This document shows, in pieces, positions 10,708 to 12,618 of a stretch of DNA of 22,669 nucleotides (its first letter is position 1; each line of letters starts with the position of its first letter). The position numbers were made by a program, and so were the translations under genes. This DNA is from a virus. The DNA is taken from IMG/VR virus record IMGVR_UViG_3300023170_000193, positions 1-22,669 of that record; one strand, written 5' to 3'. The notes beneath the pieces were generated by a model. That model ran no database searches and was not told the origin of the DNA. It saw nothing but the letters and a program-made list of their open reading frames with translations.

Positions 10708-12618
10708 GTGGCAAAGCTTTTCAATAGAGCAAAAATGACGACTGCCAGTACGGGGACTGGCACCGTTGTTTTAGGTAGTGCAGCTACAGGTTTCCAAACC
10801 TTTGCTGCTGCAGGGGTAAGTAATGGTGACGTTGTTCAATACGTCATCGAAGAAGGTGCTAATTTTGAAATCGGCACTGGTACTTATACGTCTGCCTCTA
10901 CGTCTCTAACGCGCTCTCCAACGGAAAGCAGTAGTGGTGGTAGTGCGATTAACCTCGCAGGGGATGCCACCGTTTCGATTGTGTCCGTAGCTGTAGACTT
11001 CACTAGAATACAGAATGCGGGAACCACCAAGGTGGAAGCCACGGCTACAGGTGCAACTGTCACAGGTAATCTTGCGGTTACTGGTACGGTAGACGGTAGG
11101 GATGTCGCGGGAGATGGTACAAAGCTAGATGGTATAGAGAGTAGTGCAGATGTTACCGACAGCACAAATGTAGGCTCTTCTCTTACTGACTTTCCCACAG
11201 ATACAGACGCAGCAAGTACCGACCTTATTCCTGTTTATGATACGACTGCGGCTCGTTGGGAAAAGCAAACCATTGCCAATGCTGCTTTAGTTGGTCCGAC
11301 AGGACCTACAGGACCCACAGGTCCCACTGGCCCTACAGGCCCTACAGGTCCACAGGGTCAGAAGGGCGAAAAGGGACAGAAGGGCGAAAAGGGTCAAAAA
11401 GGTGAGATCGGTGCAACGGGTCCTACAGGGCCAACTGGTCCTACGGGTCCTACAGGCCCTACTGGCCCACAGGGTCAAAAAGGTGAGAAAGGCGAGAAGG
11501 GTCAAAAGGGAGACACGGGCGCTACTGGTGCAACGGGTCCCACAGGCCAAAAAGGTGAGAAGGGTCAAAAAGGGGATACAGGTGCTACGGGACCTACTGG
11601 TCCTACTGGACCACAAGGCCAAAAAGGTGAGAAGGGACAAAAGGGGGACACTGGTCCTACGGGACCTACGGGTCCGACTGGACCACAAGGTCAGAAAGGT
11701 GAGAAGGGCCAAAAAGGCGATACTGGATCTACAGGTCCCACAGGTCCGACTGGCGCAGATGGACCCACAGGTCCTACTGGGCAAAAAGGTGAGAAGGGTC
11801 AAAAAGGTGAGGTGGGTGCAGATGGACCCACGGGGCAAAAAGGTGAGAAAGGACAAAAAGGTGAGGTAGGTGCAACAGGCCCAACTGGCCCCACGGGGCA
11901 AAAAGGTGAGAAGGGTCAAAAAGGTGAGAAGGGTCAAAAAGGTGAGGTAGGATCAACTGGGCCGACAGGGCCAACTGGATCGACGGGGCCAACAGGTCCA
12001 ACAGGGCCGCTTACTTCTGGCATCATCGTTATGTGGTCTGGTGCAATTTCTGCCATTCCAAGCGGCTGGGTTCTTTGTAATGGTGCAAACGGAACGCCTG
12101 ACTTGCGAGCGCGATTTGTTATAGGTGCGCAAGCTGACAGCGGTCAGACATATGACGTCGGAGATACGGGCGGTACAACCAACGTAACTCTTGCAACGAG
12201 CAACCTGCCTTCTCACACTCATGGTTCGGGTAATTTTGCGGTAGCATCGCACTCTCACGGAGCGGGTAACTTTGCAGTAGCATCACATACGCACAGTTCT
12301 GGTAACATTGTTACTTCGAATACTGGTTCGCATAGTCATAACCTTGCTCAAGCAGCATATCAAAATGGTTATGCGGGAAACAGTGGTCGAAATAGGTTAA
12401 ACTATAACCCCGGCGGCAATGTGGTAAACAATATAAGCTCTGCTGGCGCTCACTCACATAACACATCAGGAAACACGGGGTCTGCTTCTCCGGGTCTAAG
12501 CGGAAACACGGGTAATGCTTCTCCGGGTCTAAGTGGAGACACAGGGGCCACAGGGTCGGGAACTGCGGTTAGTATTCTTAATCCATACTATGCGCTTGCG
12601 TATATTATGAAAACTTAG
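10708..12618 (+). CDS. Collagen-like tail fibre with tail-collar tip
   Basis: 636 residues; GTG start, AAGG about 10 bases upstream. Residues 1-195 are a beta-rich attachment region ([13 protein letters not shown] start, with [13 protein letters not shown]-type spacing typical of phage fibres). Residues 196-435 are an uninterrupted collagen stalk of 80 Gly-X-Y triplets. Residues 436 to about 510 are a tail-collar domain ([42 protein letters not shown]), followed by a His-rich, Gly/Ser-rich distal part with several H-x-H motifs and the terminus [11 protein letters not shown]. It should form a trimer. It is very likely a receptor-binding or side fibre. All 29 stalk lysines are at Y, and hydroxylation/glycosylation genes follow. 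Confidence 0.88.
11293..12012 (+). repeat. 80 collagen Gly-X-Y triplets (9-base repeats)
   Basis: In-frame 9-base units encode GPT (28), GQK (18), GEK (11), GAT (5), GDT (4), GPQ (4), GST (3), GEV (3), GAD (2), GEI and GPL. GPT blocks alternate with charged GQK/GEK blocks. Every Lys is at Y and every Pro at X. Lys-Gly-Glu and Lys-Gly-Asp sequences are known to stabilise collagen helices by interchain salt bridges. Synonymous variation shows that the repeat is old rather than freshly expanded. Confidence 0.95.

Follow-up and report, generated by a model that had tools for sequence, protein, structure and literature searches.

Descriptions of glycosylated hydroxylysine mostly concern animal collagens and mimivirus. 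The closest described systems are the human enzymes LH3/PLOD3 and COLGALT1, the complex of which has been solved (PDB 8zgc), and two mimivirus proteins, L230 (a lysyl hydroxylase with a glycosyltransferase) and R699 (a glucosyltransferase), whose action on viral or animal collagen has been demonstrated (PMC5802723, PMC9546862). Collagens from bacteria and phages are generally portrayed as lacking modification (PMC8968730, PMC3368898). A comparison among phages is offered by the Escherichia coli prophage collagen-like proteins (EPclP), phage-borne tail fibres with proline at X and lysine or arginine mostly at Y of the GXY triplet, but with GPK/GER-type triplets and not KGQKG; recombinant EPclA is not glycosylated, and prolyl hydroxylases are absent from E. 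coli (PMC3368898). In the open-access literature we found no paper drawing a link between phage collagen and lysine hydroxylation, or describing PLOD as an auxiliary gene.

A collagen-stalked tail fibre and its gene neighbourhood

The stretch of DNA analysed here (the window) is a 22,669-base IMG/VR virus record with a phage structural gene cluster. It encodes a tail fibre from a marine phage, followed on the same strand by a run of putative modification genes:

10708-12618, plus strand: tail fibre gene, 636 aa, GTG start (open reading frame; Pfam Collagen 4e-36; PHROG tail fibre / collar fibre families)
11293-12012, plus strand: collagen-like stalk within the fibre, 80 unbroken GXY triplets (translation count; PF01391)
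12619-12972, plus strand: 117-aa protein without assigned function, between fibre and modification genes (open reading frame)
12983-13705, plus strand: 240-aa DUF6065 / phrog_7084 protein (Pfam 2.2e-6; PHROG 3.1e-51)
13726-14271, plus strand: standalone 2OG-Fe(II) oxygenase, 181 aa (PF13640 6.5e-15; alignment; AF2 pLDDT 91; fold matches)
14262-16019, plus strand: three-domain enzyme, 585 aa, TTG start overlapping the end of the oxygenase gene (Pfam; PDB sequence matches; AF2 and Foldseek)
16012-16560, plus strand: FkbM-type methyltransferase, beginning within the last bases of the three-domain gene (PF05050 5.6e-16)

The fibre consists of an N-terminal part, the collagen stalk and a C-terminal part of tail-collar type. 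The 80 triplets are uninterrupted and score above the Pfam cut-off for PF01391, as expected of a collagen triple helix. The residue counts given in the initial annotation are exact: all 29 stalk lysines are at Y and none at X (18 GQK and 11 GEK), and all 33 prolines are at X. Threonine occupies Y in 40 triplets, and the fibre holds six more lysines outside the stalk. As the stalk is built of diverged repeats, the 29 lysines are not independent. Given the control stalks described below, their restriction to Y in this one stalk is weak evidence. The codings of the repeats have diverged synonymously, with nine forms among 18 GQK triplets and 20 among 28 GPT triplets. A second fibre in the window (17762-19990) has a weak collar-domain match and TGNVTGNVTGDVTG repeats, and no collagen stalk.

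Downstream of the fibre, the oxygenase, three-domain and methyltransferase genes overlap end to start. The FkbM-type methyltransferase holds an equal position in several relatives, and sugar O-methylation is a possible role for it. The DUF6065 / phrog_7084 protein likewise recurs in several of the 21 PLOD loci compared. In position, the 117-aa protein recalls the tail assembly chaperone of Roseobacter phage CRP-6, whose gene comes after that of the fibre; homology with that chaperone was rejected, as sequence comparison gave no match. Adjoining the modification genes, at 16576-17697, is a 373-aa protein of repeated SGSFxxTGQ units with relatives in other PLOD loci.

A three-domain enzyme related to LH3 and COLGALT1

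The 585-aa protein divides into three domains, for each of which relatives occur among the human collagen-lysine enzymes:

14262-14777, plus strand: GT25 domain (matches the C-terminal catalytic glycosyltransferase of COLGALT1; Pfam GT25 6.6e-10)
14784-15428, plus strand: GT_PLOD domain (PF25342 1.4e-43; LH3 alignment)
15474-16007, plus strand: lysyl-hydroxylase-type 2OG domain (residue alignment; sequence and fold matches)

The GT_PLOD profile PF25342 scores 149 bits against a curated cut-off of 27 (E 1.4e-43). Profile comparison with solved structures recovers the glycosyltransferase of LH3 (1.7e-60), mimivirus R699 (6e-44), the lysyl hydroxylase domain of mimivirus L230 (8e-16) and COLGALT1 (approximately 1e-24), the last of these covering most of the GT25 domain and corresponding to the catalytic C-terminal glycosyltransferase; in PDB sequence comparison the C-terminal part also matches the LH domain of LH3. 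Single-sequence searches point to collagen-lysine enzymes too, and a Foldseek comparison of the AF2 model (pLDDT 86) finds the same ones, although the arrangement of the domains in this model is uncertain (pTM only 0.47).

The residues expected of a glucosyltransferase are conserved. An alignment with LH3 places K224, D245/D248, E274, W278, N298, D322, D323, Q324 and N374 of the phage enzyme opposite, in the same order, K89, D112/D115 (which we take to be glucosyltransferase residues of LH3), E141, W145, N165, D190, D191, Q192 and N255. Roles for the LH3 residues other than D112/D115 have been described (PMC10342707), and the phage equivalents of the whole set are invariant in 22 phage homologues. 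In the GT25 domain the metal site E435-D436-D437 of COLGALT1 (PMC13382579) aligns with E74-E75-D76, of which E74 and D76 are invariant and the middle position is variable. In the third domain the Fe(II) triad and the tyrosine of the 2OG pocket are present as H510, D512, H559 and Y499, all invariant in the 22 homologues; the Tyr-to-His and His-x-Asp spacings are identical to those of mimivirus L230, where the corresponding residues are Y814, H825, D827 and H877, together with the 2OG-binding R887 (PMC5802723). The counterpart of that arginine, R729 in LH3, is a lysine (K569) in 22 of 22 phage homologues. Collagen prolyl 4-hydroxylase also has lysine at this position. Because the 2OG-binding arginine is absent and the activity is putative, we call the domain lysyl-hydroxylase-type and do not claim membership of the lysyl hydroxylase family.

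The likeness to LH3 and COLGALT1 thus extends to the domains for all three activities, the glucosyltransferase catalytic residues, the Fe(II) ligands and the X-Lys-Gly context of the substrate. The differences are that the phage enzyme is one 585-aa chain and the human system two proteins, that we identified no LH3 accessory domain in the phage chain, that there is a single GT25 domain and a lysine at the 2OG-binding arginine position, and that the substrate carries a K-G-Q-K-G motif. The mimivirus enzymes are similarly virus-encoded, but they come from a giant virus of amoebae and divide the functions between separate proteins; in the present case the virus is a tailed phage and the three domains are fused.

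Homologues of the phage enzyme form 21 clusters at 70% identity. Beyond the phages, freshwater Actinobacteria genomes (L500-L528) encode standalone proteins of approximately 190-320 aa that are 34-46% identical to the lysyl-hydroxylase-type domain. The flanks examined contain no collagen stalk; the domain is therefore not always linked to collagen, and non-collagen use is possible. A bacterial chromosome contig of Kaistia terrae carries a two-domain GT_PLOD and LH protein (L499, 7929-9281), with a short lysine-containing collagen stalk several kb upstream. A Neomarinimicrobiota MAG contig (L498), probably phage or prophage, has the same arrangement as the window, with GSK GQK GEV stalks, a standalone 2OG oxygenase and the three-domain enzyme.

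Stalk lysines and the GT_PLOD gene across viral records

We compared stalk composition with gene content in two kinds of sample. An unbiased sample of 120 loci was drawn from viral records with a GXY pattern blind to composition, and motif samples were drawn with matched patterns (K-G-Q-K-G, K-G-D-K-G and K-G-E-K-G), after which whole records were searched for GT_PLOD. Records with at least three KGQKG were classed as KGQKG-rich, and those with at least six Y-position lysines and no GQK as Lys-rich GQK-free.

A preference of lysine for Y, read initially as a sign of selection for lysine modification, turned out to be generic: 80-86% of lysines are at Y in stalks without modification genes, the very outcome that the initial annotation had named as contrary to its reading. 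We therefore rejected Y-position bias as a discriminating statistic. In the unbiased stalks without GT_PLOD, GQK-rich stalks removed, lysine falls 315 at Y to 78 at X, with no X-position lysine in 41 of 65 lysine-containing stalks; in the 62 Lys-rich GQK-free records the figures are 683 and 110. The restriction of proline to X was also rejected as special to the PLOD system, as it is generic among phage collagens (1848 X to 270 Y in control stalks; PMC3368898).

What goes with the PLOD-type gene is the absence of X-position lysine, the GQK triplet and the paired K-G-Q-K-G, and it is by this route, not through Y bias, that selection for lysine modification is supported. GT_PLOD was found in 25 of the 72 virus records rich in KGQKG (27 counting truncated genes) and in none of 62 Lys-rich GQK-free records, many of the records being fragments. 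After clustering with the stalks masked, the association is 12/33 against 0/54 clusters (p approximately 2e-6; like all p-values here this is uncorrected and one of several related tests, with thresholds and comparison groups fixed after a first look at the data). The ratio of X- to Y-position lysine is 0:3051 in the 72 KGQKG-rich records, and clusters with any X-position lysine number 0/33 among the KGQKG-rich and 28/54 among the GQK-free (p 4e-8). Gln precedes 60% of Y-position lysines in PLOD-bearing stalks but only 4 of 315 in the GQK-poor unbiased controls. All stalk-bearing GT_PLOD loci have zero X-position lysines and nearly all have the KGQKG signature. Six loci picked by the enzyme alone, and so free of stalk-motif bias, contain 151 lysines at Y and none at X, with Gln before 57% of them and at the next X in 61%; exact pairs account for 59 of 70 lysine runs. 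In the 120-locus blind sample GT_PLOD occurs in only two records, both KGQKG-rich. Across loci, the lysine pattern is far from chance.

The stalk lies 0.6-6 kb upstream of the enzyme, on the same strand, in all loci with enough DNA except locus L230 (a record in our sample, distinct from the mimivirus protein). There GT_PLOD is present but the stalk is GDK-rich with only two GQK, which weakens a simple rule that GT_PLOD implies GQK; this KGQKG-poor stalk lies downstream of the enzyme and is reminiscent of mimivirus collagen.

Could lysine at Y be a solution for helix stability only, through Lys-Gly-Glu/Asp bridges and a favoured Y position, unrelated to modification? The generic Y preference of the GT_PLOD-free controls fits this, as does the general preference of phage collagens for lysine or arginine at Y (PMC3368898), and an acidic residue (Glu or Asp) comes after 19 of the 29 lysines in the window's stalk. 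Salt bridges, which the initial annotation had put beside lysine modification, are thus locally possible and may contribute in this stalk. As a main driver, however, they are weakened by the composition of the next X. Asp following Lys is the classic stabilising arrangement, and it is found after 68% of Y-position lysines in Lys-rich controls but 2% in PLOD-bearing stalks, where the next X is instead Gln (61%) or Glu (28%), a set that is partly motif-chosen but whose figures hold in the six enzyme-picked loci. Salt bridges leave the motif unexplained, GQK is nearly absent from the controls, and strictly zero X-position lysine is confined to the modification-linked group; we regard helix stability alone as unlikely.

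Equally, related marine phages might inherit KGQKG stalks together with 2OG and glycosyltransferase genes with no functional link between them. The KGQKG-rich records do share lineages (72 records reduce to 33 clusters), and marine cyanophages, a group in which 2OG oxygenases are common, make up many of the named relatives. Yet the association outlasts clustering, although ancestry and habitat are controlled only in this way and by a few natural contrasts. It spans the window, Roseobacter phage CRP-6 and Kyanoviridae cyanophages, with the enzyme and GxKGQKG stalks occurring in CRP-6 and in cyanophages S-PRM1, S-CAM9 and S-8S53/55/56; the fibres are largely unrelated, those of S-CAM9 and the window being unrelated outside the stalk. 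Controls paired by similar fibre ends were useful in two cases: CRP-207 has a homologous fibre with a short stalk lacking lysine, and no enzyme match was found in its complete genome, while P-SSM2 has no enzyme match and its forward-strand stalks are lysine-free in the stretch examined. Several other phages with similar fibre ends (L480-L484, cyanophages and others) lack a collagen stalk and are uninformative as controls.

The same motif is also adjoined by a second enzyme architecture. In L168, L177, L180 and L258, all KGQKG-rich and without GT_PLOD, a protein of 740-820 aa with GT4-type, GT25 and OGFOD2-like/2OG domains is encoded near the stalk; a 754-aa protein with GT25 and LH parts occurs in L051. 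Of 44 KGQKG-rich GT_PLOD-negative records, 16 have 2OG_Oxy_3 and 8 have GT25; among 50 GQK-free records each of the two occurs once. With the joint loss of a standalone oxygenase and X-position proline inside one enzyme cluster (below), these observations make shared ancestry without function an improbable account. GT_PLOD, GT25 and 2OG_Oxy_3 are all absent from 26 of 72 KGQKG-rich records, mostly fragments. Two of these KGQKG-rich records are long (L229 and L255, 37.7 and 41.7 kb) and have no recognised enzyme in the stretch examined; a search for the missing enzymes in L485, L487 and L494 recognised none. L229/L485 and L255/L487 are large multi-collagen records with KGQKG-rich stalks; neither a hydroxylase nor a glycosyltransferase was recognised in the part of them examined.

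That the enzyme acts on another target, such as host LPS or a different protein, with its adjacency to the fibre incidental, is very unlikely: Pfam does class GT25 as LPS biosynthesis and the actinobacterial domains lack a stalk in the flanks examined, but comparison with solved structures places COLGALT1 nearest to the GT25 domain and collagen enzymes nearest to the remaining two, and the pattern of the stalk varies together with the gene. In our view the lysine pattern most likely arises because the three-domain protein encoded nearby modifies the stalk lysines enzymatically.

The standalone oxygenase, X-position proline and a proposed pathway

The 181-aa protein has the double-stranded beta-helix fold of a 2OG oxygenase with the HxD...H...R/K residues, which are invariant in alignment (H99, D101, H158, R168). 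Its AF2 model matches PBCV-1 vCPH (Z 17.4), Pseudomonas putida P4H (16.9), PHD2 (16.5) and LH3 (15.4). The top matches are thus a viral and a bacterial prolyl hydroxylase, though identity with vCPH is only 20% and the phage target would be X-position proline of Gly-Pro-Thr; given LH3 at 15.4, fold alone does not settle whether proline or lysine is the target.

Stalk composition offers a second line of evidence. Among PLOD-bearing loci, proline at X amounts to 13-61% with a homologue of this oxygenase (L215, at 0%, is the exception) and to 0-6% without. By cluster, oxygenase and X-position proline go together in 11/12 against 0/10 (p 3e-5), mixed-state clusters having been split by hand and some calls of absence possibly reflecting fragmentary records. 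Two loci (L220 and L232) have the oxygenase and little X-position proline. The region of CRP-6 examined contains no standalone 2OG gene. In the blind sample the median X-position proline is 0.62 with an oxygenase and 0.18 without (p 8e-5), and inside one enzyme cluster (L013/L015 against L244/L271) loss of the standalone 2OG gene goes with loss of X-position proline. Fold and proline content together are suggestive, though not decisive, of an X-position prolyl hydroxylase. The initial annotation saw a stalk selected for lysine modification "rather than for hydroxyproline"; this contrast is not supported, as the fold of the adjoining oxygenase comes closest to prolyl hydroxylases and its presence tracks X-position proline among PLOD-bearing phages. 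Both lysine and X-position proline are probably modified in the stalk.

What we observe is the anatomy of the locus, the homology of the domains, the preservation of most catalytic residues and the joint variation of gene and stalk motif; from this we infer the chemistry, the identity of the sugars, the lysine used in each pair and the benefit to the phage. Quite probably the three-domain enzyme, the gene for which lies 2.2 kb downstream, takes the stalk as its substrate; it would hydroxylate the stalk lysines and add a disaccharide (probably Glc-Gal). The C-terminal 2OG-Fe(II) domain would hydroxylate lysine at Y, mainly in the paired K-G-Q-K-G context. Two sugars would follow: one from the GT25 domain, which the analogy with COLGALT1 suggests to be galactose, and then another from the GT_PLOD domain, which LH3 and mimivirus R699 suggest to be glucose. 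The product would be a stalk of glycosylated hydroxylysine, made by one chain doing the work of the human LH3/COLGALT1 pathway, and the separate 2OG oxygenase of the same gene cluster would most likely hydroxylate X-position proline of Gly-Pro-Thr. Such a fibre shaft may be stiff, sugar-coated and protease-resistant, without hydroxyproline of the vertebrate type.

We regard as evenly balanced the broader proposition that tailed phages possess a complete collagen-lysine O-glycosylation pathway fused in one protein (COLGALT-type GT25, LH3-type glycosyltransferase and lysyl hydroxylase), with a K-G-Q-K-G substrate code, a partner prolyl hydroxylase reading X-position proline and an independently assembled GT4, GT25 and 2OG version serving the same motif, so that the amino-acid content of the stalk would be written by the adjoining modification genes. 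If so, marine phages coat their fibre shafts with collagen-type sugars by means of one fused enzyme, and the KGQKG motif and the X-position proline rule would predict which modification each phage carries. Existing isolates would allow a direct test by mass spectrometry, and the compact single-chain enzyme could serve in the production of glycosylated recombinant collagen.

Among the other records, L369 (8.5 kb) carries six 2OG-Fe(II) oxygenase genes together with a lysine-containing, GQK-free collagen stalk.
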